64,000 nucleotides of DNA, from the NCBI RefSeq assembly GCF_026236535.1, contig NZ_JAHTMW010000022.1:1-64000 (forward strand), read 5' to 3'. This document shows, piece after piece, positions 453 to 45,047 of the stretch (the stretch's first letter is position 1; each line of letters begins with the position of its first letter). The notes under the pieces are model-generated. The model did not search any database, was not told where the DNA came from, and worked only from the letters and a program-made list of their open reading frames with translations. Made by a program: the position numbers and the translations under genes. Source of the stretch: Streptomyces sp. SKN60 (GTDB lineage: Bacteria > Actinomycetota > Actinomycetes > Streptomycetales > Streptomycetaceae).

Positions 453-520
453 TTGACGCCCCTCCACCCCCCGACCTACATTGCTTCCGTATAGCAGAAC
501 AGTACTTCCGCATTATGGAA
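453..520 (+). promoter_or_regulatory. gcl promoter with tandem TTCC-N7-GGAA operator pair
   Basis: A housekeeping-like promoter is visible: TTGACG at 453-458, an 18-bp spacer and TACATT at 477-482, giving a start near 488-490. Just downstream are two palindromes. The first (485-499) has half sites TTCC and AGAA; the second (506-520) is a perfect TTCC-N7-GGAA. They lie 21 bp apart, two helical turns, on the same DNA face at the transcription start, which fits repression. The same pair recurs at hyi, aceB and allR/allB. AllR, encoded in this window, is the likely binder (inference). Confidence 0.7.
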
Positions 521-587
521 ACAAGCCGCTGGCGCTCCTGCCGGAGCCGCCGCGCCTGTGTCCCCTGGCCGAAGCAGGAGCACTCCC

Positions 588-2375
<1,788 letters not shown>

Positions 2376-5033: not shown

Positions 5034-6491
5034 TCAGTCCTCGCGCAGGGCGCGGACGGCCTCCTCGACGCGCCGGCCGTACTCGGCGTCGGCGGCGGCG
5101 AAGTGGGCGAGGTTCTTCTCGATGACGTCCTCGCGGGCGACCTGGGAGAGGCTGCCGGCGATGTTGGACACCAGACGGGACTTCTCGTCCTCGGACATCA
5201 GCCGGTAGAGCTCACCGGCCTGGAAGAAGTCGTCGTCCTTGACGTGCGCCGGGGCGGCGTGGGTGCCGGTCCAGCCGTGGATCGCGAGCGGCGCGGAGAG
5301 CGCGGCGTCGGTCTGCGCCGGGCCCTGGTGCGAGTTGGGCTCGTAGTTCTTGTCGTGGCGCGAGCCGTTGCGGGTGGCCATCAGGCCGTCACGGCCGTAG
5401 TTGTCGGCCGTGGTCGCCTTGGGGGCGTTGACCGGCAGCTGGGTGTGGTTGACGCCGAGGCGGTAGCGGTGGGCGTCCGCGTAGGCGAAGAGGCGGCCCT
5501 GGAGCATCTTGTCCGGCGAAGGACCGATGCCCGGCACGAAGTTGTTCGGGGAGAACGCGGCCTGCTCGACCTCGGCGAAGACGTTGTCCGGGTTGCGGTC
5601 GAGGACCAGCCGGCCCACGCGCTGCAGCGGGTAGTCGCTGTGCGGCCACACCTTGGTGAGGTCGAACGGGTTGAAGCGGTAGTCCGCGGCCTCGGCGGCC
5701 GGCATGACCTGCACGTAGAGGGTCCAGGACGGGCTCACGCCGCGCTCGATGGACTGCAGCAGGTCGGTCTGGTGCGAGTTGGCGTCCTTGCCGACCAGCT
5801 CGGCGGCCTGCTCGGCGGAGAGGCTGCGGACACCCTGGTTCGTCTTGAAGTGGTACTTGACGAAGAAGGCCTCGCCGGCCTCGTTGGTCCACTGGTAGGT
5901 GTGCGAGCCGTAGCCGTTCATGTGGCGGTACGAGGCAGGGATGCCGCGGTCGCCGAACAGCCAGGTCACCTGGTGGGTCGCCTCGGGGGCGTGGGCCCAG
6001 AAGTCCCAGACGTTGTCCGCCTCCTGCTTGCCCGTGAAGGGGTCGCGCTTCTGGGAGTGGATGAAGTCGGGGAACTTGATCGGGTCCTTGATGAAGAACA
6101 CCGGGGTGTTGTTGCCGACGAGGTCGTAGTTGCCCTCCTCGGTGTAGAACTTCAGCGCGAAGCCGCGCGGGTCGCGGACCGCGTCCGCGCCGCCGAGCGA
6201 GTCGGCCACCGTGGAGAAGCGCAGGAACAGCTCGGTCTTCTTGCCGACCTCGGAGAGGAAGGCGGCCTTGGTCCAGGCGGTGACGTCGTCGGTCACCTCG
6301 AAGTAGCCGTACGCGCCGGAGCCGCGGGCGTGCACCACGCGCTCCGGGATCCGCTCACGGTTGAAGCGCGCGAGCTTCTCCAGGAGGTGCTGGTCCTGGA
6401 GGAGGATGGGGCCACCGACGCCGGCGGTGGCGGAGTTCTGGTTGTCGGCGACGGGGGCGCCGGACTCGGTCGTAAGCACGCGCTTCGACAT
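5034..6491 (-). CDS. katA: Monofunctional haem catalase (small-subunit clade)
   Basis: A 485-residue catalase that dismutates H2O2. Features seen are the N-terminal active-site segment ([16 protein letters not shown], catalytic His about residue 55), the substrate-channel NNTPVFF region and the proximal haem-ligand motif [11 protein letters not shown], with Tyr as ligand. The length fits small-subunit catalases of Streptomyces. ATG 6491 has GGAAGG 7 bases upstream. It lies downstream of hyi-glxR on the same strand but has its own promoter, which shares a palindrome with the uricase operon. A role in removing uricase-derived H2O2 is therefore plausible (inference). Confidence 0.96.
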
Positions 6492-6550: not shown

Positions 6551-6591
6551 AGCGTAGGTACGCCCGGCAAAAAACGTCAACAGTTTGTTGA
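6551..6591 (-). promoter_or_regulatory. katA promoter merged with TCAACA-N3-TGTTGA palindrome
   Basis: Read on the minus strand: a perfect palindrome TCAACA-N3-TGTTGA (6577-6591), whose right half forms part of a TTGACG -35 (6575-6580). An 18-bp spacer and a TACGCT -10 (6551-6556) follow. The predicted start is near 6544, about 50 bases before the ATG. The uricase-operon promoter has the same architecture: palindrome fused to TTGACG, 18-bp spacer, TA-rich -10. The binding protein is unknown. Confidence 0.68.
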
Positions 6592-6699
6592 AAAAGAAGG
6601 GTGGTGTTCCGGACGGCGGCGGCGCCTGGGCGCGACAGGACAGGTTGTCAGCGCCGCCACCGCCCGGAAATCTGGGCCCCGTCGGAACGGGGGACCGGG

Positions 6700-7590
6700 T
6701 CAGACCTGCTGGCCGGAGAGGCGCTCGACGGCGCGCAGCAGGGCCGAGTGGTCCAGGCCGCCGTCGCCCTGCGCACGCAGGGAGGCGACGAGCTGGGCGA
6801 CCACGGCGCCGACCGGGAGGGCCGCGCCGACGTTGCGGGCGGCGTCGGTGACGATGCCCATGTCCTTGTGGTGCAGGTCGATCCGGAAACCGGGCTTGAA
6901 GTCGCGGTTCAGGAAGTTGTCCTTCTTGCGGGTCAGGACCGTGGAGCCGGCCAGACCGCCGTTGAGGACGTCCAGCGCGGCGTTGAGGTCCACGCCGGAC
7001 TTCTCCAGGAAGACCACGGCCTCGGCGCACGCCTGGATGTTGACGGCGACGATGAGCTGGTTGGCCGCCTTGACCGTCTGGCCGGAGCCGTGCGGGCCGC
7101 AGAGGACGATGGTCTTGCCGAGGGCCTCCAGGATCGGGAGGGCCGCGTCGAAGTCGGCCTGCTCGCCGCCCACCATGATCGACAGAACGGCCTCGATGGC
7201 GCCGGCCTCGCCGCCGGAGACGGGGGCGTCGATGACGCGGATGCCCTTCTCCTTGGCGTTCTTGGCCAGGTCGACCGAGGTCTGCGGAGTGATCGAGGAC
7301 ATGTCCACGATCAGGGCGCCCTGCCTGGCGTTCTCCAGGATGCCCTCGGGGCCGTAGGAGATGGCCTCGACCTGCGGGGAGGCGGGCACCATCGTGATGA
7401 TCACGTCGGCGTCCTTGACCGCCTCGGCGATCGAGCCGGCCGCGGTGCCGCCGGCGGCGGCCAGGCGGTCAAGCTTGTCCTGCTCCAGGGTGAAGCCGGT
7501 GACGGAGTAGCCGGCCTTGATCAGGTTCTCGGACATGGGGGAGCCCATGATGCCGAGACCGATCCACGCGATCTTGGGGAGGTTGCTCAT
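6700..7590 (-). CDS. glxR: Tartronate semialdehyde reductase (2-hydroxy-3-oxopropionate reductase)
   Basis: A 296-residue member of the beta-hydroxyacid dehydrogenase family that reduces tartronate semialdehyde to D-glycerate with NAD(P)H. It has an N-terminal Rossmann fingerprint (GLGIMGSPM), the substrate-binding DAPVSGGEAGA motif and the catalytic-lysine segment GSGQTVKAANQ near residue 170. The start at 7590 gives the family-typical MSNLPKIAWIGLG; a longer in-frame start only adds low-complexity residues. It follows hyi by 62 bp, so the two are probably co-transcribed and complete the glycerate pathway begun by gcl. Confidence 0.95.
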   Translation of the reverse strand: MSNLPKIAWIGLGIMGSPMSENLIKAGYSVTGFTLEQDKLDRLAAAGGTAAGSIAEAVKDADVIITMVPASPQVEAISYGPEGILENARQGALIVDMSSITPQTSVDLAKNAKEKGIRVIDAPVSGGEAGAIEAVLSIMVGGEQADFDAALPILEALGKTIVLCGPHGSGQTVKAANQLIVAVNIQACAEAVVFLEKSGVDLNAALDVLNGGLAGSTVLTRKKDNFLNRDFKPGFRIDLHHKDMGIVTDAARNVGAALPVGAVVAQLVASLRAQGDGGLDHSALLRAVERLSGQQV

Positions 7591-7652
7591 GAGGGTGCCT
7601 CTCGAAAACAAGGTGGTACGGGGAGGGGGACGCCGGGCTGCGGCGCCGGGCG

Positions 7653-8486
7653 TCAGCGGGCCGGGCGGGCCTCGGCCGGCAGCCACTCGAAGGACGCGGC
7701 GGCGTCGACGGCCTTGTACTCCAGGCCGACCCAGCCGTCGTAACCGGCCTTCTTCAGCTCGTCGAGCAGCTGCTCGAGCGGGAGCTCGCCGGTGCCCGGG
7801 GCGCCACGGCCCGGCATGTCGGCGATCTGTACGTGGCCGGTCTTGTCCGCGTAGGCGGCGATGACCGCGCTGACGTCCTCGCCGTTCATCGCCAGGTGGT
7901 AGATGTCGAGGAGGAACTTGGTGTTGCCGAGGCCGGTGGCCGCGTTCACCTTGTCGACGACCTCGATCGCGGCGGGGGCGCTCACCAGCGGGTAGAGCGG
8001 CGACTCCGGCTTGTTGAGGGTCTCGATCAGCAGGATCGCACCGACCCGGTCGGCCGCGCGGGCGGCCAGCACCAGGTTCTCCAGGGCGAGCTCGTCCTGG
8101 ACGGCGGGGTCGACGCCCTCGACGCGGTTGCCGTACAGCGCGTTGAGCGCCTTGCAGCCGACCGAGGCCGCGAAGTCCGCGGCGATGTCGATGTTGGCCT
8201 TGAACCGGTCCGACTCCTGGCCGGGCACCGAGACCGCGCCGCGGTCCGGGCCGGGCAGCTGTCCGGCGTAGAAGTTCAGGCCCACCAGCTGGGTGCCGGC
8301 GTCGTCGAGCGCCTTCTTCAGGGCGTCGAGCTCACTCTGCTCGGGGGTGGCGGTGTCGATCCAGGGCCACCACAGCTCGACCGCCGTGAAGCCCGCCGCG
8401 GCGGCGGCCGCGGGGCGCTCCAGGAGCGGGAGTTCCGTGAAGAGGATCGACAGGTTCACATCGAAGCGCTGGTCCGGGTATCCCAT
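7653..8486 (-). CDS. hyi: Hydroxypyruvate isomerase
   Basis: A 277-residue TIM-barrel enzyme of the AP-endonuclease-2-like superfamily that interconverts hydroxypyruvate and tartronate semialdehyde. The N-terminal FDVNLSILFTELPLLERP and the ELWWPW and IETLNKPES segments are characteristic. ATG 8486 is chosen as the family start; an AAGGAG about 12 bases upstream is the only Shine-Dalgarno-like sequence, and it abuts an operator palindrome. It is the first gene of hyi-glxR. A regulator bound at 8503-8538 would cover both promoter and leader. Confidence 0.94.
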   Translation of the reverse strand: MGYPDQRFDVNLSILFTELPLLERPAAAAAAGFTAVELWWPWIDTATPEQSELDALKKALDDAGTQLVGLNFYAGQLPGPDRGAVSVPGQESDRFKANIDIAADFAASVGCKALNALYGNRVEGVDPAVQDELALENLVLAARAADRVGAILLIETLNKPESPLYPLVSAPAAIEVVDKVNAATGLGNTKFLLDIYHLAMNGEDVSAVIAAYADKTGHVQIADMPGRGAPGTGELPLEQLLDELKKAGYDGWVGLEYKAVDAAASFEWLPAEARPAR

Positions 8487-8502
8487 GAGGGGTCGGCGCT
8501 CC

Positions 8503-8538
8503 TTCCGTATTGCGGAAGTAACTTTCTGTCTGGTGGAA
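8503..8538 (-). promoter_or_regulatory. hyi-glxR tandem operators, TTCC-N7-GGAA type
   Basis: A perfect TTCC-N7-GGAA lies at 8503-8517 and a one-mismatch copy (TTCT-N7-GGAA) at 8524-8538, 21 bp apart. The perfect copy overlaps the purine-rich ribosome-binding region of hyi, so binding would block the very start of the message. I could not assign a convincing -35/-10 pair here. Confidence 0.68.
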
Positions 8539-8625
8539 GGTTGCAGGGCGGGCGCCCCACTTGTCAAGAGGTCCCCGCAGGTCCGGGACTCCCCGAGGGC
8601 CGGGGGCGGGCCTTAGCGTGGGGGC

Positions 8626-8907
8626 ATGGTGCGTTTGAGAGTGGAGTTCACGACCGAGCCGTTCGACCTCGACGAGGCGCCGGCGCACGCGGTCGTGGCA
8701 CGTGAGGTCATCCAGTCGGCCGAACTGGACGCGGTGGACGTGGGGCCCTTCGGCAACACGGCCGAGGGCGGCGCGGACGCCGTGCTCACCGCAGTGGACG
8801 CGCTGCTGCGCAAGTCCCTGGCGGCCGGTGCGACCCGTGTGTCGCTCCAGGTCAATGTGATCGACGGGGCCGCTGGGGCGGACGGGACGGGTGGGGGCGA
8901 CAGATGA
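8626..8907 (+). CDS. MTH1187/DUF77-family thiamine-binding-like protein
   Basis: A 93-residue ferredoxin-fold protein of the MTH1187/YkoF-like (DUF77) group. The diagnostic GPFGNTAEGGADAV segment and C-terminal RVSLQVNVI strand are present, near residues 40-80. Members bind thiamine or related ligands, which would be notable beside the ThDP enzyme Gcl, but no role has been shown for this gene. TAGCGT six bases before the ATG suggests a leaderless message. It overlaps the next gene by ATGA, so the two are translationally coupled. Confidence 0.8.
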   Translation: MVRLRVEFTTEPFDLDEAPAHAVVAREVIQSAELDAVDVGPFGNTAEGGADAVLTAVDALLRKSLAAGATRVSLQVNVIDGAAGADGTGGGDR

Positions 8908-9290
8908 GCGAGCATCCCCTGGTGTCGGCGGTGAAGCCGCTGGTGGACGCGATGGGCGGCGAGCTGCTCGTGCCCGAGCAGGCGCAGCCGGACGACGTGG
9001 TCCTCGCCTGGGAGGGCGAGGACGTGCTCGCCGTACGGCTGCCGCAGCTGTCCGAATCCCTGGACCACATTCTCGCCGCCATGGAAAGAAGGCACGGGGT
9101 GCCGCTCTCCGAGCTCGACCGCAAGGCCAAGCAGGAGATCGTGCGGATCCTTGAGGCACGCGGTGCCTTCTCGGTGCGCCACGGTGTGGAGACGGTGGCC
9201 GGCGCCCTCGGCGTCAGCCGCTTCACCGTGTACAACTACCTGAACCGGGAGACCGCCCTGAACAGGGAAAAGGCGCCCAAGAACGGCTAG
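8904..9290 (+). CDS. Small regulator with DauR/YheO-type helix-turn-helix
   Basis: A 128-residue protein with an unrecognised N-terminal half. Its C-terminal helix-turn-helix (SVRHGVETVAGALGVSRFTVYNYLNR, about residues 88-113) resembles the HTH_22 domain of DauR/YheO-like regulators. It is coupled to the DUF77 gene by ATGA overlap and sits directly upstream of the urate operon, separated by a terminator. It is a reasonable candidate for the unknown factor at the TCAACA-N3-TGTTGA sites, though this is position-based inference only. Confidence 0.8.
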   Translation: MSEHPLVSAVKPLVDAMGGELLVPEQAQPDDVVLAWEGEDVLAVRLPQLSESLDHILAAMERRHGVPLSELDRKAKQEIVRILEARGAFSVRHGVETVAGALGVSRFTVYNYLNRETALNREKAPKNG

Positions 9291-9342: not shown

Positions 9343-9356
9343 GTGTGGCCGAGTTT

Positions 9357-9397
9357 TCAACAAAGTGTTGACGTGGTGTTGCGGAGGGCGTTAGCTA
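9357..9397 (+). promoter_or_regulatory. Urate operon promoter merged with TCAACA-N3-TGTTGA palindrome
   Basis: A perfect palindrome at 9357-9371 runs into TTGACG (-35, 9368-9373). TAGCTA (-10, 9392-9397) follows after 18 bp. The start would be near 9404, about 43 bases before uraD. The layout is the same as at katA, 2.8 kb away. Confidence 0.7.
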
Positions 9398-9446: not shown

Positions 9447-9968
9447 GTGACTTCTGGTACGACTCCGGGTCTCACCCGGTTCAACACTTCGGCGGAGGGC
9501 GACGCGCTCGCCGCGCTGCACGAGGTGTGCACGAGTTCGGCGTGGGCGAGCAAGCTCCTCGCCCAGCGCCCCTACGCCACGGTCGAAGCCCTCTTCCAGG
9601 CCAGCGACGCCGCCATGGCCGAGCTGACCGCCGAGGACCTCGCCGAGGCGATGGCGGGCCACCCGCCGATCGGTCGTCCCAAGGAAGGGGACCCGACCTC
9701 CTCCCGCGAGCAGAGCGGGATGGCCGGCGCCTCCGCGGACCTCAAGGCCGAGATGCTCGAACTGAACCTGGCCTACCAGGACACGTTCGGACATGTCTTC
9801 CTCATCTGCGCCACCGGGAAGACCGGCGAGCAGATGCGCGACGCGATCCGCGAACGGATCGGTAACTCGCCCGAGCGGGAGCGGGAGATCGTCCGCACCG
9901 AACTGGGCAAGATCAACCGCATCCGTCTGAACCGTCTCGCCGAGACCACCGAGGAAGAGAACCGATGA
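9447..9968 (+). CDS. uraD: OHCU decarboxylase
   Basis: A 173-residue 2-oxo-4-hydroxy-4-carboxy-5-ureidoimidazoline decarboxylase, which makes S-allantoin in the last step of urate oxidation. The HPPIG motif with the catalytic His (about residue 72) and the SREQSGM segment are present. It starts at GTG 9447 after GGAGG and overlaps uraH by ATGA. It is the first gene of uraD-uraH-uricase. Confidence 0.95.
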   Translation: MTSGTTPGLTRFNTSAEGDALAALHEVCTSSAWASKLLAQRPYATVEALFQASDAAMAELTAEDLAEAMAGHPPIGRPKEGDPTSSREQSGMAGASADLKAEMLELNLAYQDTFGHVFLICATGKTGEQMRDAIRERIGNSPEREREIVRTELGKINRIRLNRLAETTEEENR

Positions 9969-21879: not shown

Positions 21880-23511
21880 TCAGCCGACCAGCTGGTCGTA
21901 CGCGGGGAGGGTCAGGAAGTCCGCGTAGTCGGCGTCCAGCGAGACATGCAGCAGGAGGTCGTGCGCCTGCTGCCACTTTCCGGCCGCGAAGGCCTCCTCG
22001 CCGATCTCCTCGCGGATCGCGGCCAGCTCCTCGGCCGCCACCCGGCGGGCCAGCTCCGGCGTCGCCTTCACGGATTCCCCGCCGTGCTCGAACTCGACAC
22101 CCGCGTTGATCCACTGCCAGATCTGCGAGCGCGAGATCTCGGCGGTGGCCGCGTCCTCCATCAGGTTGAAGATCGCGACGGCGCCCAGGCCGCGCAGCCA
22201 GGCCTCGATGTAGCGGATGCCGACCTGGACCGCGTTGCGCAGGCCCTCGTACGTCGGGTGGGCGTCCAGCGAGGCGATGTCGATCAGCTCGGGGCCGGCC
22301 ACGTGCACGTCCTCGCGCAGCCGGTCCTTCTGGTTCGGCTTCTCGCCGAGGACCGCGTCGAAGGAGGCCATGGCGATCGGCACCAGGTCGGGGTGGGCGA
22401 CCCAGGAGCCGTCGAAGCCGTCGCCGGCCTCGCGGTCCTTGTCGGCCTTGACCTTCTCGAAGGCGACCTTGTTGACCTCGGCGTCCCGGCGGGACGGGAT
22501 GAAGGCCGCCATGCCGCCGATCGCGTGCGCGCCGCGCTTGTGGCAGGTGCGCACGAGCAGCTCGGTGTAGGCGCGCATGAACGGGGCGGTCATCGTCACG
22601 GCGTTGCGGTCCGGCAGGACGAACTTGGCGCCGCCGTCCCGGAAGTTCTTGACGATGGAGAAGAGGTAGTCCCAGCGACCGGCGTTCAGACCGGCGGCGT
22701 GGTCGCGGAGCTCATAGAGGATCTCCTCCATCTCGTACGCGGCCGTGATGGTCTCGATGAGGACCGTGGCGCGGACGGTGCCCTGCGGGATGCCGACGTA
22801 GTCCTGGGCGAAGACGAAGATCTCGTTCCAGAGGCGGGCCTCCAGGTGCGACTCCGTCTTCGGCAGGTAGAAGTACGGGCCCTTGCCGAGGTCGATGAGC
22901 CGCTGCGCGTTGTGGAAGAAGTAGAGGCCGAAGTCGACCAGCGCACCCGGGACCGGGCGGCCGTCGACCGTCAGGTGGCGCTCCTCCAGGTGCCAGCCGC
23001 GCGGGCGCATGACGACCGTGGCCAGCTCGCCGGCCGGCTTCAGGGCGTAGGACTTGCCCGACTTCGGGTCGGTGAAGTCGATGTTCCGGGTGTAGGCGTC
23101 GATCAGGTTGACCTGACCGAGGACCACGTTCTCCCAGGTCGGCGCCGAGGCGTCCTCGAAGTCCGCGAGCCAGACCTTCGCACCCGAGTTCAGCGCGTTG
23201 ATCGTCATCTTGCGGTCGGTCGGGCCGGTGATCTCCACACGCCGGTCGTTCAGCGCCGCCGGGGCGGGCGCGACCTTCCACGAGTCGTCGGCGCGGATCG
23301 CCGCGGTCTCGGGCAGGAAGTCCAGGGAGGACGTACGGGCGATCTCGGCGCGGCGCTCGGCGCGGCGGGCGAGCAGCTCGTCCCGGCGCGGGGTGAACCG
23401 ACGGTGCAGCTCGGCCACGAAGGCGAGGGCCGCGTCGGTGAGCACCTCCTCCTGGCGCAGCAGGGGCTCGGCTTCGACGACGACCAGGGAGGACGGCGCT
23501 GGTGCGGACAT
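21880..23511 (-). CDS. aceB: Malate synthase A
   Basis: A 543-residue malate synthase that condenses glyoxylate with acetyl-CoA to malate. The family segment [37 protein letters not shown] (about residues 225-260), the early [17 protein letters not shown] and the late [13 protein letters not shown] match isoform A over full length. It gives the second exit for glyoxylate released by the allantoicase pathway. Its promoter carries both palindrome families of this region, so induction by ureides is expected. Confidence 0.97.
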
Positions 23512-23637
23512 GAACTGTCACTTCCTTCAGCGGACTTCACGGGCGGTGCCAGCCCGGCCGCCGGGCGTCGTCGTGTGGCACGCGGTGCCACAGGCGCCGG
23601 GATACGGCCGGGAGCGCCGTCTCGGGGGATCAGGCGC

Positions 23638-23690
23638 TTCTGAACAGTGGATACTAGTTTCCTCATGGTGGAAGTTCAATGGTTTGTTGA
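23638..23690 (-). promoter_or_regulatory. aceB promoter with both operator types
   Basis: Minus strand: TTGAAC (-35, 23674-23679), a 17-bp spacer and TAGTAT (-10, 23651-23656). The perfect TTCC-N7-GGAA (23659-23673) fills the spacer. Its degenerate partner (TTCT-N7-GGAT, 23638-23652) is 21 bp away over the start site. A TCAACA-type palindrome (23676-23690, one half imperfect) covers the -35. Two different regulators could act here. Confidence 0.75.
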
Positions 23691-23795
23691 TGTCGAGATT
23701 CTTTGGGTCGACAGAACGTGGCGCTCGGTGCCACCGCCCTCACTCCCGGTGTCCCGGCCCGCCCGTGCCCCGCGCCCCTCGCTCCCGTCACCCCC

Positions 23796-24428
23796 TCACT
23801 CCAGGCGTGCCAGATCCGCCTCCGTGTCGATGTCGTACGGCTCGGCCACATCCGAACAGTCCACCAGGGTGATCGCATCCCGGTGCGCCGCCAGATAGTC
23901 CCGCGCCCCCCGGTCGCCCACCGCCCCCGCCGCGATCCCCGCCCAGCGGTCCGCGCCGAACAGCACCGGATGGCCCCGCTTCCCGTGGTATGAGGCGGCC
24001 GCCAGCGCGTCCCGCCCGCCGTACGCGCCGCGCACCCGGGCCACCGCCGCCGCGCCGATCCCCGGCTGGTCCACCAGCGACACCAGCGCCGCGTCCACCG
24101 GGACCGGCGCCGCCGCCCGCAGCGAGTCGAGCCCCACCCGCAGCGAGGACCCCATGCCCTCCGCCCACTCCGGGTTGTCCACGAGCACGCACCCCGGCAG
24201 CTCCGCCTCCGCCCGCACCCGTTCGGCCGCAGCCCCGAGCACCACGTGCACCACCTCGCAGCCGCCCTCGCGCAGCATCCGCACCGCGTGCTCCACCAGC
24301 GGACGGCCGCGATGCGGGAGCAGCGCCTTCGGCCGGCCGCCGAGCCGGCGCCCGCCGCCGGCGGCCAGCAGAAGCCCGGCGACCAGGGGTTCGTGTGTCT
24401 CATGCGTCATGAGGACTGCATACCGCAT
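23796..24428 (-). CDS. MobA/MocA-like nucleotidyltransferase (probable molybdenum cofactor cytidylyltransferase)
   Basis: About 210 residues with the NTP-transferase signature LLLAAGGGRRLGGRPKALLPHRGRPLVEHA near the N-terminus, the LVSLVDQPG metal-binding Asp motif and a RGHPVLFG loop, as in MocA-type enzymes. MocA matures the Mo-pterin cofactor of xanthine dehydrogenase, so its place in a purine region is sensible, although no xdh genes are in the window. The start at 24428 was preferred because GAGG lies just upstream; ATG 24410 is the alternative. Confidence 0.8.
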   Translation of the reverse strand: MRYAVLMTHETHEPLVAGLLLAAGGGRRLGGRPKALLPHRGRPLVEHAVRMLREGGCEVVHVVLGAAAERVRAEAELPGCVLVDNPEWAEGMGSSLRVGLDSLRAAAPVPVDAALVSLVDQPGIGAAAVARVRGAYGGRDALAAASYHGKRGHPVLFGADRWAGIAAGAVGDRGARDYLAAHRDAITLVDCSDVAEPYDIDTEADLARLE

Positions 24429-24562
24429 CGCACCTCGCCACACGGACGCCTGAAATCGCGTCATGCCGCTGGCGCGGCGGGCGCGCGGAGGTGTTGACTG
24501 ACCGCGACCCCGGCGCCTGACCACCGCTCGACGGGTCGGTACGAAGTCGTGCGAGGGGGAGC

Positions 24563-35701: not shown

Positions 35702-36511
35702 CTAGGCCTGGCCGTTGCCCGCCGTGTTCACCAGTGCCGCCGACAGCTCCTGGGCGACCTGCTGCAGGATCGGGACGATCTTCTCGGTGGCGGCCTCGGT
35801 GACGCGGCCCGCCGGGCCCGAGATGGAGATGGCCGCCGCGGTGGGGGAGTTGGGCACCGGCACCGCGAGGCAGCGGACTCCTATCTCCTGCTCGTTGTCG
35901 TCGACCGCGTAGCCCGTCTCGCGGACCGCCGCCAGGGCCTCCAGGAAGCCCTCGGGCGTGGTGATGGTCTTCTCGGTGGCGGCGGGCATGCCGGTACGGG
36001 CGAGCAGCGCGCGCACCTCGTCGGCCGGGGTGTCGGCGAGCAGCGCCTTGCCCACGCCGGTGGAGTGCGGCAGCACCCGGCGGCCGACCTCGGTGAACAT
36101 GCGCATCGAGTGCTTGGAGGGCACCTGGGCGACGTAGACGATCTCGTCGCCGTCGAGCAGCGCCATGTTCGCCGTCTCGCCGGTCTCCTCCACGAGCCGC
36201 GCCAGGTACGGGCGGGCCCAGGTGCCGAGCAGCCGGGAGGCGGACTCACCGAGCCGGATCAGGCGCGGGCCCAGGGCGTACCGGCGGTTGGGCTGCTGGC
36301 GGACGTAGCCGCAGGCGACCAGGGTGCGCATGAGGCGGTGGATGGTGGGCAGCGGCAGGCCGCTGCTGGCGGAGAGCTCGCTGAGCCCGACCTCGCCGCC
36401 GGCGTCGGCCATCCGCTCGAGGAGATCGAAGGCACGCTCGAGGGACTGGACGCCACCGCTCGCGGCGGCGGGTTTCGCGGCGTCGGTGGTGCTGGCGCTG
36501 GACGTCGGCAC
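35702..36511 (-). CDS. allR: AllR, IclR-family repressor of allantoin/glyoxylate genes
   Basis: 269 residues. The N-terminal winged helix ([40 protein letters not shown], about 38-80) is followed by an IclR effector domain ([38 protein letters not shown]). GTG 36511 was chosen as start because AAAGGA lies 8 bases upstream. AllR of Streptomyces represses allantoin genes and responds to pathway intermediates (known for S. coelicolor). The 15-bp tandem palindromes in this window are its most likely targets, but which palindrome family it binds is not proven here. Confidence 0.92.
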
Positions 36512-36675
36512 GGCAACGGTCCTTTCGGGGCAGGCGGGCAAGGCAGCAGCCTACCGGGCCGCCGAGCCGGACACACGGCACAGGTCTCGGCGTCCGGGCC
36601 GGTCAGGGGGGTGTTTGTCCCAGGTCGGCGGCCGCCTCGCGGGCTCCTGGTGCGCCCCGCATGTACGGAGCTACG

Positions 36676-36711
36676 TTCTACTGTACGAAATTTCCATTCC
36701 ACTTCATGGAA
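36676..36711. promoter_or_regulatory. Tandem TTCC-N7-GGAA operators between allR and allB
   Basis: A perfect copy lies at 36697-36711 and a two-mismatch copy (TTCT-N7-GAAA) at 36676-36690, again 21 bp apart. It sits midway in the 347-bp divergent region and could control either gene, including autoregulation of allR. Confidence 0.68.
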
Positions 36712-36768
36712 ACGTCCAATCGGCCCTCGCGGGGGCGGGTCGCGCCGGGCGATCCTGGAAACGTGCTC

Positions 36769-36815
36769 TTGACGGCATGTCGTCACGCACGCAGACTCCT
36801 TCAACAGTTCGTTGA
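36769..36815 (+). promoter_or_regulatory. allB promoter region with TCAACA-N3-(T/C)GTTGA palindrome
   Basis: TTGACG at 36769-36774 and a weak CAGACT at 36792-36797 (17-bp spacer) place a start near 36804, inside the palindrome 36801-36815 (one mismatch). Immediately after lies a further TTCCGCGGAA palindrome (36824-36833). The -10 is poor, so the promoter call is tentative. Confidence 0.5.
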
Positions 36816-36858
36816 ATTTTCGGTTCCGCGGAAGCGGATGCGAGGAGAAGGGGTACGG

Positions 36859-38193
36859 GTGGACGTCAATCTGGTCCTGCGTTCGACGCGGGTGATCACG
36901 CCCGAGGGGACGCGCGCGGCGTCGATCGCCGTCGCGGGCGGGACGATCGCGGCCGTGTGGCCCCACGACGCCGAGGTCCCGGCCGGCGCCCGGCTGGAGG
37001 ACGTCGGCGACGACGTGATCCTGCCCGGCCTGGTCGACACCCACGTCCACGTCAACGACCCCGGGCGGACGGAGTGGGAGGGCTTCCACACCGCGACGCG
37101 TGCCGCCGCGGCCGGCGGCATCACCACCCTCCTCGACATGCCCCTCAACTCCCTCCCGCCGACCACGACCGTCGAGCACCTGCGGATCAAGCGGGAGGTC
37201 GCGGCGCCGAAGGCCCACGTCGACACCGGGTTCTGGGGCGGGGCGGTGCCGGACAACGTCAAGGACCTGCGGCCCCTGCACGACGCCGGCGTCTTCGGCT
37301 TCAAGTGCTTCCTGTCCCCCTCCGGGGTGGAGGAGTTCCCGCAGCTCGACCAGGAACAGCTCGCCGCCTCGCTGGCCGAGATCGCCGGGTTCGACGGGCT
37401 GATGATCGTCCACGCCGAGGACCCCCACGAGCTGGACGCCGCCCCGCAGAAGCCCGGCCCCGCCTACGCCGACTTCCTCGCCTCCCGGCCCCGTATCGCG
37501 GAGAACACCGCGATCCAGAACCTCATCGACCAGGCCCGCCGCCTGGCCGCCCGCGTCCACGTCCTGCATCTGTCGTCCTCGGACGCGCTGCCGCTGATCG
37601 CCGCCGCCAAGGCCGAGGGCGTGAAGATCACCGTCGAGTCCTGCCCGCACTTCCTCACCCTGACCGCCGAGGAGATCCCCGACGGCGCGACCGAGTTCAA
37701 GTGCTGCCCGCCCATCCGCGAGGCGGTCAACCAGGACGCCCTCTGGGAGGGGCTCGCGGACGGCACGATCGACTGCATCGTCTCCGACCACTCCCCCTCC
37801 ACGGCCGATCTGAAGACCGGGGACTTCGCCTCCGCCTGGGGCGGGATCTCCTCGCTCCAGCTCGGGCTGCCCGCGATCTGGACCGAGGCCCGCCGCCGCG
37901 GCCACGACCTCACCGACCTCGCCCGCTGGATGTCCACCAACCCCGCCCGCCTCGCCGGCCTGGACCGGAAGGGCGCGATCGAGCCCGGCCGGGACGCCGA
38001 CTTCGCCGTCCTCGACCCCGACGCCACCTTCACCGTCGACCCCGCCCGGCTCCAGCACCGCAACCGCGTCACCGCCTACGCCGGCAAGACCCTCCACGGC
38101 GTCGTCACCTCCACCTGGCTCCACGGCGAACGCATCAACCACCGCGGCACCCTCACCGACCCCGCCGGCCGCCTCCTCGAAAGGACCAACTGA
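36859..38193 (+). CDS. allB: Allantoinase
   Basis: A 444-residue cyclic amidohydrolase that opens allantoin to allantoate. It has the zinc ligands [10 protein letters not shown] (about 58-67), a carboxylatable Lys in [11 protein letters not shown], His in MIVHAEDP and LHLSSSD, and Asp in [11 protein letters not shown] 36859 is chosen because AAGGGG is 5 bases upstream. The allantoicase gene begins one base after its stop, so the two form an operon. Confidence 0.95.
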
Positions 38194-38194
38194 C

Positions 38195-39310
38195 GTGTCC
38201 GCCATACCCTCCTTCACCGGCGACGCCAGCCCCTACGGCGGCGGTGACCCCTACGCCGACTACCGCACGGCCGACTTCCCCTTCACGCAGTACGCCGACC
38301 TCGCCGACCGGCGCCTCGGTGCCGGCGTCGTCGCCGCGAACGACGAGTTCTTCGCCGAGCGCGAGAACCTGCTCAAGCCCGAGGCCGCCGAGTTCGACCC
38401 CGAGCACTTCGGCCACAAGGGCAAGATCATGGACGGCTGGGAGACCCGCCGCCGTCGCGGCGTCTCCGCCGCGCAGCCCCACCCCACCGAGGACGACCAC
38501 GACTGGGCGCTCGTGCGCCTCGGCGCCCCTGGCGTCATCCGCGGCCTCGTCGTCGACACCGCCCACTTCCGCGGCAACTACCCGCAGGCCGTGTCGGTCG
38601 AGGCCGCCTCCGTCGCCGGCTCGCCCTCGCCCGAGGAGCTGCTCGCCGACGACGTCAAGTGGACGACCCTCGTGCCGCGCACCGCCATCGGCGGCCACGC
38701 CGCCAACGGCTTCGCCGTCGACGTCGAGCAGCGCTTCACCCACCTCCGCGTCAACCAGCACCCCGACGGCGGCATCGCCCGCCTCCGCGTGTACGGCGAG
38801 GTCGCCCCCGACCCCGAGTGGCTCGGCGTGCTCGGCACCTTCGACCTCGCGGCCCTGGAGAACGGCGGCCAGGTCGAGGACGCCTCCGACCGCTTCTACT
38901 CCCCGGCCACCAACACCATCCAGCCCGGCCGCTCCCGCAAGATGGACGACGGCTGGGAGACCCGCCGCCGCCGCGACAAGGGCAACGACTGGATCCGCTA
39001 CAGCCTCGCCGCCGAGGCCGAGATCCGCGCCGTCGAGATCGACACCGCGTACCTCAAGGGCAACAGCGCCGGCTGGGCCGCGCTCTCCGTCGCCGCCGAG
39101 GGCTCCGAGGACTGGACCGAGATCCTGCCCAGGACCCGCCTCCAGCCCGACACCAACCACCGCTTCGTCCTCGGCGTGCCGGCCGTCGGCTCCCGGGTCC
39201 GGATCGACATCTACCCCGACGGCGGCATCTCCCGCCTCCGTCTCTTCGGCTCGCTCACCGATGCGGGCACGGCGCGGCTGACCGCCCGCCACCAGGAACT
39301 GGGCGGCTGA
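38195..39310 (+). CDS. alc: Allantoicase
   Basis: A 371-residue enzyme of two homologous jelly-roll repeats (about 30-190 and 210-355). Each has KxMDxGWETRRRR, an ID/VDTAxFKGN-like strand and a HxDGGIxRLR/YPDGGISRLR motif. It cleaves allantoate to ureidoglycolate and urea; ureidoglycolate breakdown then yields glyoxylate. GTG 38195 is used. No ureidoglycolate lyase or urease is encoded in the window. Confidence 0.95.
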   Translation: MSAIPSFTGDASPYGGGDPYADYRTADFPFTQYADLADRRLGAGVVAANDEFFAERENLLKPEAAEFDPEHFGHKGKIMDGWETRRRRGVSAAQPHPTEDDHDWALVRLGAPGVIRGLVVDTAHFRGNYPQAVSVEAASVAGSPSPEELLADDVKWTTLVPRTAIGGHAANGFAVDVEQRFTHLRVNQHPDGGIARLRVYGEVAPDPEWLGVLGTFDLAALENGGQVEDASDRFYSPATNTIQPGRSRKMDDGWETRRRRDKGNDWIRYSLAAEAEIRAVEIDTAYLKGNSAGWAALSVAAEGSEDWTEILPRTRLQPDTNHRFVLGVPAVGSRVRIDIYPDGGISRLRLFGSLTDAGTARLTARHQELGG

Positions 39311-43865: not shown

Positions 43866-45047
43866 ATGTCGGTCACCGATCTGCGGGAGTACGGCGCGGA
43901 GTTCACCGCGAACCCGTACCCCTACTACGCGAAGCTCCGCGCCTCAGGCCCGGTCCACGAGATCCTCACCCCCGAGGGCATCCCCGCCTGGCTGATCGTC
44001 GGCTACGACGAGGCCCGCGCCGCCCTCGCCGACCAGAGACTCATCAAGGACCCCTCCGTCGTCATGGACTTCGTGCCGCTGGAGTTCGAGGTCATCGGCC
44101 CCAACCTGCTCGGCATCGACCCGCCCGACCACACGCGGCTGCGCAAGCTCGTCGCGGGCGAGTTCACCGGCCGCCGGGTGGAGGCCCTGCGCCCCAGGAT
44201 CCAGCAGCTCACCGACGAACTCCTCGACGCGATGGCCCCGGCGGGCCGCGCAGACCTCGTCGACTCCTTCGCCTTCCCGCTGCCCATCACCGTCATCTGC
44301 GAACTCCTCGGCGTCCCCGCCGCCGACCGCGACTCCTTCCGCGCCTGGTCGAACGAGCTCGTCGCCCCCACCGGCGCGATGACCGAACGCGAGGCCGTCG
44401 AGGGCTTCGGCGGCTACCTCGACGAACTCATCGAGGACAAGCGCGCCGCCGGCCCCCGGGACGACCTGCTCTCCGCGCTCATCGCCACCCGCGCCGAGGA
44501 CGGCGACCGACTCTCGCTGCCCGAACTGCGCGCCCTCGCCTATCTGTTGCTGATCGCGGGCCACGAGACCACGGTCAACCTCATCGCCGGCACCGTACGG
44601 CTGCTGCTCACCCACCCCGACCAGCTGGCCGCGCTGCGCGCCGACCCCGGACTCGTCGACGCGGCGATCGAGGAGGGCCTGCGCTTCGACGGACCGGTCG
44701 AGGCCGCCACGTACCGCTTCTCCAGCGAGGACGTGGAGATCGCCGGGACGGTGATACCCGCCGGTTCCGTGGTCCTCGTCGGTCTCGCCGCGAGCGCCCG
44801 CGACGCCGCCCGCTTCCCGGACCCGGACCGCTTCGACGTCCACCGCGACCCGCGCGGCCACCTCGCCTTCGGCCACGGCATCCACTACTGCCTGGGCGCC
44901 CCGCTGGCCCGCCTGGAGGGCAAGATCGCCATCCGGTCGCTTCTGGAGCGCTTCCCGCGGCTGGAACTCGACCCCGACGCGGGCTCGTTGGAGTGGCTGC
45001 CGGGTCTGCTGATCCGCGGCACCCGCCGGCTCCCGGTCGTATGGTGA
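43866..45047 (+). CDS. Cytochrome P450, CYP107-like
   Basis: 393 residues with the P450 core: the oxygen-activating helix motif LIAGHETT (about 234-241), an ExxR-equivalent E-GLRFDG region, and the haem loop FGHGIHYCLG with the thiolate ligand Cys342. The layout is that of soluble bacterial class I P450s that need a separate ferredoxin and reductase, neither of which is nearby. TAGCCT followed by six bases and ATG indicates a leaderless promoter independent of the upstream two-component genes. Confidence 0.93.
   Translation: MSVTDLREYGAEFTANPYPYYAKLRASGPVHEILTPEGIPAWLIVGYDEARAALADQRLIKDPSVVMDFVPLEFEVIGPNLLGIDPPDHTRLRKLVAGEFTGRRVEALRPRIQQLTDELLDAMAPAGRADLVDSFAFPLPITVICELLGVPAADRDSFRAWSNELVAPTGAMTEREAVEGFGGYLDELIEDKRAAGPRDDLLSALIATRAEDGDRLSLPELRALAYLLLIAGHETTVNLIAGTVRLLLTHPDQLAALRADPGLVDAAIEEGLRFDGPVEAATYRFSSEDVEIAGTVIPAGSVVLVGLAASARDAARFPDPDRFDVHRDPRGHLAFGHGIHYCLGAPLARLEGKIAIRSLLERFPRLELDPDAGSLEWLPGLLIRGTRRLPVVW

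Follow-up and report, generated by a model that had tools for sequence, protein, structure and literature searches.

On balance, the promoter of the malate synthase gene aceB in Streptomyces sp. SKN60 is probably a stacked-operator promoter, in which a tandem operator of the IclR-type repressor AllR, the site of a second repressor that recognises TCAACA-type palindromes and a pair of GC-rich palindromes acting through DNA looping would be combined around one sigma-70-like promoter; as judged from comparative sequence analysis, the AllR layer would be ancestral and the TCAACA layer branch-specific. Malate synthase is the meeting point of glyoxylate derived from allantoin and glyoxylate derived from acetate and fatty acids, and the aceB promoter seems to carry operators of both glyoxylate routes and, in addition, one of purine breakdown. 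Positions refer to the window, i.e. the whole stretch of DNA that was analysed (64 kb, rich in GC and with a gene content that fits Streptomyces), and the coordinates of all features are collected in Table 1.

Read on the minus strand, the block upstream of aceB is ATCAACAAACCATTGAACTTCCACCATGAGGAAACTAGTATCCACTGTTCAGAAG. The original prediction had placed in front of aceB a TTGAAC-N17-TAGTAT promoter with a TTCC-N7-GGAA operator in its spacer, a partner of this operator over the start and a TCAACA-type site over the -35, and direct reading confirmed each of these elements at fitting positions. The 17-nt spacer runs from 23673 to 23657 and contains the main operator (23673-23659); the partner is a weaker copy, matching 6 of the 8 arm bases, which lies 21 bp (two helical turns) downstream, over the end of the -10 and over a transcription start that we infer to be near 23644. 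The TCAACA site is also degenerate, with two mismatches to the palindrome TTCAAC-N5-GTTGAA, and the -35 hexamer doubles as its right arm. A scan for consensus promoters (at least 9 of 12 bases, hexamers 16-18 apart) did not list the aceB promoter, which scores 8/12; its hexamers, of the sigma-70 (HrdB) type, are conserved at fixed spacing across 60 genomes. Two operator families thus meet at aceB, as had been proposed, and both recur at other genes. Directly upstream of aceB there is a gene for a MobA-like nucleotidyltransferase (23796-24524, minus strand; PF12804), which possibly serves the cofactor of xanthine dehydrogenase. A further conserved stretch, GAGAATCTCGAC at 23691-23711, which includes TCGAC-N10-TCGAC, adjoins the TCAACA site upstream (1.16 bits in the clade of 53 rows described below).

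Table 1. Genes and proposed regulatory elements of the aceB promoter and of the two operator families that meet there.
Feature	Position	Strand	Remarks
Tandem TTCC operator before gcl	485..520	+	2 mismatches to the dual pattern, 21-bp spacing; read in this genome only
gcl, glyoxylate carboligase	558..2375	+	TIGR01504, 1143 bits (cut-off 711.2)
Catalase gene	5034..6491	-	PF00199
TCAACA palindrome before the catalase gene	6576..6592	-	over the -35
glxR, tartronate semialdehyde reductase	6700..7686	-	TIGR01505, 490.8 bits (cut-off 340.75)
hyi-like gene, hydroxypyruvate isomerase	7653..8567	-	TIGR03234, 303.7 bits, below the cut-off of 353.45
Tandem TTCC operator before hyi-glxR	8503..8538	-	dual-pattern match, 21-bp spacing; read in this genome only
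Small HTH_22 protein, candidate TCAACA regulator	8904..9290	+	PF13309, 75.1 bits; between hyi and uraD
TCAACA palindrome over the uraD -35	9356..9372	+	29/30 loci; 8/10 further genomes
uraD	9447..9968	+	followed by transthyretin-like HIU hydrolase and uricase genes
aceB, malate synthase A	21880..23511	-	TIGR01344, 836 bits (cut-off 594.5)
GC-rich leader palindrome of aceB, GGCAC-N3-GTGCC	23577..23589	-	52/60 genomes
Degenerate partner operator ATCC-N7-AGAA	23638..23652	-	ATCC-ACTGTTC-AGAA; 21 bp downstream of the main operator, over the -10 end and the predicted start
-10 hexamer TAGTAT	23651..23656	-	TA---T in 60/60 genomes
Main TTCC-N7-GGAA operator within the promoter spacer, proposed AllR site	23659..23673	-	TTCC-ACCATGA-GGAA
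-35 hexamer TTGAAC	23674..23679	-	TTGAA- in 55/60 genomes
TCAACA-type palindrome over the aceB -35	23675..23691	-	TCAACAAACCATTGA at 23690-23676
GC-rich partner GGCAC-N3-GCGCC upstream of the aceB promoter	23720..23732	-	33/60 genomes; imperfect, missing in 27/60
IclR-family regulator, proposed AllR	35702..36541	-	PF09339, 68.4 bits; PF01614, 151.3 bits; adjoins allB
Tandem TTCC operator in the allR-allB gap	36676..36711	-	matches the dual pattern without mismatch; on the allR side
TTCAAC-N5-GTTGAA at allB	36800..36816	+	just downstream of a -10-like hexamer; TCAAC-N6-TTGA in 29/29 untruncated loci (of 30)
allB, allantoinase	36859..38193	+	TIGR03178, 622.6 bits (cut-off 357.85; ORF scored from 36661)
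Allantoicase gene	38195..39310	+	TIGR02961, 415 bits (cut-off 277.9)
TCAACA palindrome before the urease operon (ureA)	L041 1501-1515, contig C10:58793		exact at the main ureA in 7/15 Streptomyces
TCAACA palindrome in the divergent cydA-like/cyclophilin-like (PF04126) gap	L042 1501-1515, contig C15:212340		perfect copy

The exact pattern TTCC-N7-GGAA occurs five times in the 64-kb window against 0.27 expected. When a partner was defined as a copy with at least 6 of the 8 arm bases 11-45 bp away in either direction, four of the five had one and only one, in each case at 21 bp; at this distance 40 Markov controls gave no partner. The fifth copy, at 44952, is partnerless and lies inside a P450 ORF (43866-45047); it was taken as a chance match. 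Genome-wide, the dual pattern is matched exactly at two places, aceB and allR, and with up to two mismatches at eight, four of them within the window; the backward control gave one forward and one reverse row.

The protein encoded at 35702-36541 has both domains of the IclR family (HTH_IclR and IclR_C). It scores 122.6 bits against the E. coli AllR equivalog NF007548 (below the cut-off of 406) and 169 bits against the NCBIfam model of E. coli IclR (below 380), and its best NCBIfam match is BhcR, with 205 bits (below 350). As expected of a Streptomyces AllR regulon, the regulator stands beside allantoinase and one operator is shared by genes of allantoin and glyoxylate metabolism, namely gcl, hyi-glxR, aceB and allR itself. 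The TTCC sites were assigned to AllR because of this gene order and of the type of motif, and the tandem would fit an IclR-type repressor. In the account of Navone et al. 2015, aceB is reportedly among the AllR targets of Streptomyces coelicolor; if so, the TTCC part is largely known biology. Across the allR-allB gaps of 29 loci, exact TTCC-N7-GGAA is found in 21 and a 21-bp tandem with an arm sum of at least 13/16 in all 29, the 30 shuffles of each gap peaking at 10-13; in ten distant genomes the tandem on the allR side reaches 13/16 in only three (G018, G031 and G051). The operator of GenR, an IclR-family protein, is given as ATTCC-N7(5)-GGAAT (PMC8222616); a homologue in S. coelicolor is reported to repress allantoin genes and the homologue SACTE_5479 is described as a likely repressor (both PMC12772271), and allantoic acid is reported to weaken the binding of AllR (PMC11438217).

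For the second family, TCAAC-N6-TTGA gives seven rows (four places) in the window against 0.05 expected, and the genome holds four perfect copies of TCAACA-N3-TGTTGA, before the catalase gene (6577), uraD (9357) and the urease operon and in the gap between the cydA-like and cyclophilin-like genes; the copy at allB (36801) has one mismatch and that at aceB is degenerate. The family recurs at functionally related promoters. Among the ten further genomes, the uraD site retains 11 of 12 bases in G010 and is absent from G031. At allB, most loci show TTGAC, a -10-like hexamer and then CC-TTCAACAG; the palindrome is present in six of the ten further genomes, while G060 has a copy nearer the gene, G037 one with one mismatch, and G010 and G043 none. 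The cyclophilin-like gene was found in 8 of 27 genomes, and the palindrome is exact in seven of these and has 11 of 12 bases in the eighth. The place of the palindrome varies between promoters: at uraD, catalase and aceB it covers the -35, at ureA it is found close upstream of a TA---T box and at allB it lies at the predicted start, and therefore a repressor is favoured. Moreover, the allR-allB gap (36676-36816) holds both families, the TTCC tandem lying nearer allR and the TCAACA palindrome at the start of allB.

An exact search of the phylum for TTCAACA-N3-TGTTGAA gave matches in 6 of 296 genomes. One of them, G186, carries the site of the cyclophilin-like gene; no ureide genes were recognised by reading the ORFs around the sites of G144 and G293, and no frames were found under the high-GC filter around those of G105 and G331. 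In the genome of SKN60, the one-mismatch sites L003, L004, L006-L008, L045-L047 and L050 lie inside coding frames and were dropped, and L048 lies between genes. The exact sites of G367, G376 and G423 are likewise inside a coding frame, and that of G361 (L214) has no frame nearby. To judge from its spacing, a second TCAACA site near uraD in G378 and G426 would belong to catalase. Taken together, the distribution of the palindrome points to an unassigned operator through which the genes for urate breakdown, allantoinase, urease and catalase of Streptomyces would be linked.

The aceB block was compared in 60 upstream regions, our own and those of 59 of 60 other genomes of the same genus (G001, with aceB in pieces, was left out; for G050, 246 bases upstream of aceB were available). 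The block is kept as a unit, at widely differing distances from the start codon. The main TTCC operator is exact in 51/60 genomes, has at most one mismatch in 59/60 and at most two in 60/60; for the partner, WTYC-N7-AGAA, the corresponding figures are 40/60, 51/60 and 53/60. TCAAC-N6-TTGA is kept in 46 genomes and absent from 14, the half-site TCAACA occurs in 49/60, and three genomes have a perfect TCAAC-N5-GTTGA. In a tree of AceB proteins, whose direction is inferred from a midpoint root (support of 82/93 for the fork that defines the clade; several long branches), the seven deepest rows (G018, G031, G035, G037, G043, G051 and G060) have no TCAACA arm, and four further rows without it (G010, G026, G032 and G055) fall inside the remaining clade of 53 rows. 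The TCAACA information at aceB amounts to 1.51 bits in this clade (0.61 further upstream) and to 0.44 in the deep seven, and the TTCC arm has 2.0 bits in both; the partner arm AGAA, with 0.43 bits, is not kept in the deep seven. In these deep genomes the palindrome is found at both uraD and allB in G018, G035, G051 and G060, at uraD in G037 and at allB in G031. The other targets thus mostly persist where aceB is without the layer, which indicates that the site was either gained at aceB in one branch or lost from the deep branches. The TTCC/AllR layer at aceB looks ancestral, and the TCAACA layer appears to belong mainly to one large Streptomyces branch.

The third element is a pair of GC-rich palindromes that flank the promoter. 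In the 32 genomes with both copies, the spacing between their centres is 140-144 (22 genomes), 151-153 (4), 162-164 (5) or 172 (1), with nothing between, so that it changes in steps of about 10.6 bp, i.e. whole helical turns, in all 32, as for a looping pair. A comparable periodicity was not reached by any of 20000 random sets of distinct values, in a control that is not tree-aware. The regulon of the GC palindrome was searched for in 3.2 kb upstream of ten malate synthase paralogues. What we take to be the isocitrate lyase signature is present in nine of these stretches (not in G012), and all four that were tested pass the isocitrate lyase cut-offs; in all eight stretches (of ten) with what we take to be the N-terminal motif of the enzyme, GGCAC-N3-GTGCC lies at most 400 nt upstream of it, against 0-2 of 500 shuffles each, and G049 has one more copy. 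The upstream regions of isocitrate lyase contain no TCAAC-N6-TTGA and no TTCC tandem above 11/16, with the stretch misplaced for G060 and G049. Because the GC palindromes also precede isocitrate lyase in relatives, a glyoxylate-cycle signal would enter aceB too, and a glyoxylate-cycle regulator is the most likely protein to use the GC layer as its operator. Many Streptomyces have a second malate synthase downstream of isocitrate lyase (L318-L327), without the operator block of aceB; ten of 18 longer matches to malate synthase paralogues were checked and none has the block. In the genome of SKN60 a single malate synthase was found, and here aceB would have to serve both glyoxylate routes.

A candidate for the regulator of the TCAACA sites is the small HTH_22 protein encoded beside uraD, which has no other Pfam domain above cut-off. 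It is present in 28 of 30 uraD loci and in 8 of 10 distant ones (G043 was left out of this search), and a strong match exists in 100 of 104 genomes of the genus; no such match was found in 15 genomes from elsewhere in the order. The four members of the genus without the protein also have no intact allB (G367 has a fragment), no main ureA and no non-coding exact TCAACA-N3-TGTTGA. In G355 and G361, of another family, allB is present, HTH_22 is absent and there is no site at allB. On the other hand, ureA is missing also in G426, G031, G037 and G047, all with HTH_22; no HTH_22 was seen within about 1.5 kb of the uraD site in G057, G051 or G058, and in G031 the protein is present and the uraD site absent. 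The co-occurrence is an association, which a joint loss of the pathway would explain equally. The allantoinase fragment of G367 (L236, C2:128009-128422; about 138 residues, 74% identical) stands in a genome without HTH_22 and ureA and indicates an apparent recent loss of the ureide pathway. Our guess is that the HTH_22 protein presumably corresponds to SCO6208 of S. coelicolor. SCO6208 is listed as a putative transposase in PMC3897704, and SCO6209-6211 appear in PMC4991794 as urate genes lowered in a SenR-dependent manner; SenR is another input into uraD. A search of the literature for HTH_22/YheO gave unrelated papers only.

In the mechanism that we propose, AllR would bind the tandem TTCC pair and block RNA polymerase until glyoxylate or a ureide releases the repressor. 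The TCAACA site of aceB would be occupied by another repressor, common to the uraD, allB, catalase and urease promoters, and the gene would be fully on only once both repressors have left, so that two de-repressions are combined in an AND. Via the GC pair, a glyoxylate-cycle signal would be brought in by a third protein, which aceB would share with isocitrate lyase, probably by DNA looping. In its most detailed form, with three signals, an ancestral AllR tandem, a later TCAACA layer belonging to an undescribed purine-to-urea regulon possibly run by HTH_22 and a looping GC pair shared with isocitrate lyase, the reading is tentative, and we regard it as possible rather than probable.

The TCAACA layer is open to several other explanations. 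The aceB site could be the -35 plus a decayed or chance left arm and be free of protein, in which case the gene would be regulated by AllR alone or by AllR and the GC-pair protein. The seven deep rows and the four more genomes that have no left arm keep the TTCC core, G002, G021 and G008 retain the half-site at altered spacing, and part of the conservation could be that of the promoter, given the overlap with the -35. The site was scored with a matrix built from the uraD, allB and ureA sites, without aceB: at 20.3 it scores under the other sites, and under the best of 20 random windows, whose best scores average 11.9 and reach 23.7. By the same matrix it nevertheless ranks fourth in the 64 kb, the next score being 12.7, its left arm is better conserved in the 53-row clade than the sequence far upstream, and three genomes have perfect palindromes, so that we consider a chance arm rather unlikely. 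An activator that touches RNA polymerase from over the -35, combined with repression by AllR, would account for the register shared by uraD, catalase and aceB, with the centre near -40 (read by eye); at allB, however, the palindrome follows the -10-like hexamer and lies at the predicted start, and the ureA copy lies close upstream of a TA---T box, which makes an activator improbable.

The same low probability applies to an exchange of roles, in which AllR would bind TCAACA-N3-TGTTGA and another protein the TTCC tandem. Both families are present in the allR-allB gap, and PMC12772271 reports an action of the S. coelicolor AllR on allantoin genes; yet TTCC-N7-GGAA is of the ATTCC-N7(5)-GGAAT type given for the IclR-family protein GenR in PMC8222616, and the TTCC tandem is the one on the allR side of the gap. 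More weight has to be given to the objection that the GC palindromes are no operator pair, the leader copy acting alone or as RNA and the helical spacing reflecting shared ancestry. The upstream copy is imperfect and often missing, the random sets ignore kinship, and the three further exact GGCAC-N3-GTGCC copies in the window (9091, 9155 and 33512) are all inside ORFs. Against this, at least seven changes of turn class are needed on the AceB tree, with no in-between spacing in 32 genomes; the distance to the start codon has no helical period, the leader RNA is not folded more stably than its shuffled versions (z -0.67), and the same palindrome is found at isocitrate lyase. We therefore judge this objection somewhat unlikely and retain the stacked-operator promoter, with looping, as the preferred reading.

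The original prediction had also described aceB as a logic point that combines two ureide/glyoxylate signals. What stands of this is that the two families meet, that the block is kept as a unit and that the regulons fit ureide/glyoxylate metabolism, the TTCC regulon making sense as the disposal of glyoxylate and the TCAACA regulon as the breakdown of purines and ureides. It has to be qualified in that the TCAACA layer is not universal (46/60) and that the allR-allB gap also carries both families; moreover a third palindrome family flanks the promoter, so that more than two inputs are probable. The arrangement suggests that aceB weighs allantoin, purine and acetate-type signals together, and it makes a compact natural test case for the way in which operators come to be superimposed and new layers are acquired over time, with one layer in 60/60 genomes (at most two mismatches), one mainly in one branch and one formed by a phased pair.

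In the literature searched, which consists of open-licence papers accessible in part, no statement was found of the 21-bp rule, the TCAACA regulon or the phased GC pair. Among the closest known systems is AllR of Streptomyces coelicolor (Navone et al. 2015), in which an IclR regulator beside allB reportedly likewise controls allantoin and glyoxylate genes; the operator sequence and the 21-bp tandem rule were derived here, and the TCAACA and GC layers are not known to be part of that account. The looping repressors LacI, GalR and AraC resemble the GC pair in having two palindromes around one promoter at whole-turn spacing, for which the evidence here is comparative sequence analysis. IclR and AllR of E. 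coli, which control aceBAK and the allantoin regulon, belong to the same protein family and act on glyoxylate and allantoin genes, but their operators, TGGAAATNATTTCCA and KTTGGAAWAWTWTTCCAAC, have GGAA on the outside, whereas here TTCC is outside with N7 (PMC8222616). GenR of Corynebacterium glutamicum has an operator of the type found here, ATTCC-N7(5)-GGAAT, and differs in controlling gentisate genes (same source). Stacked and overlapping operators are a well-known kind of promoter architecture, of which aceB is an unusually well conserved case.
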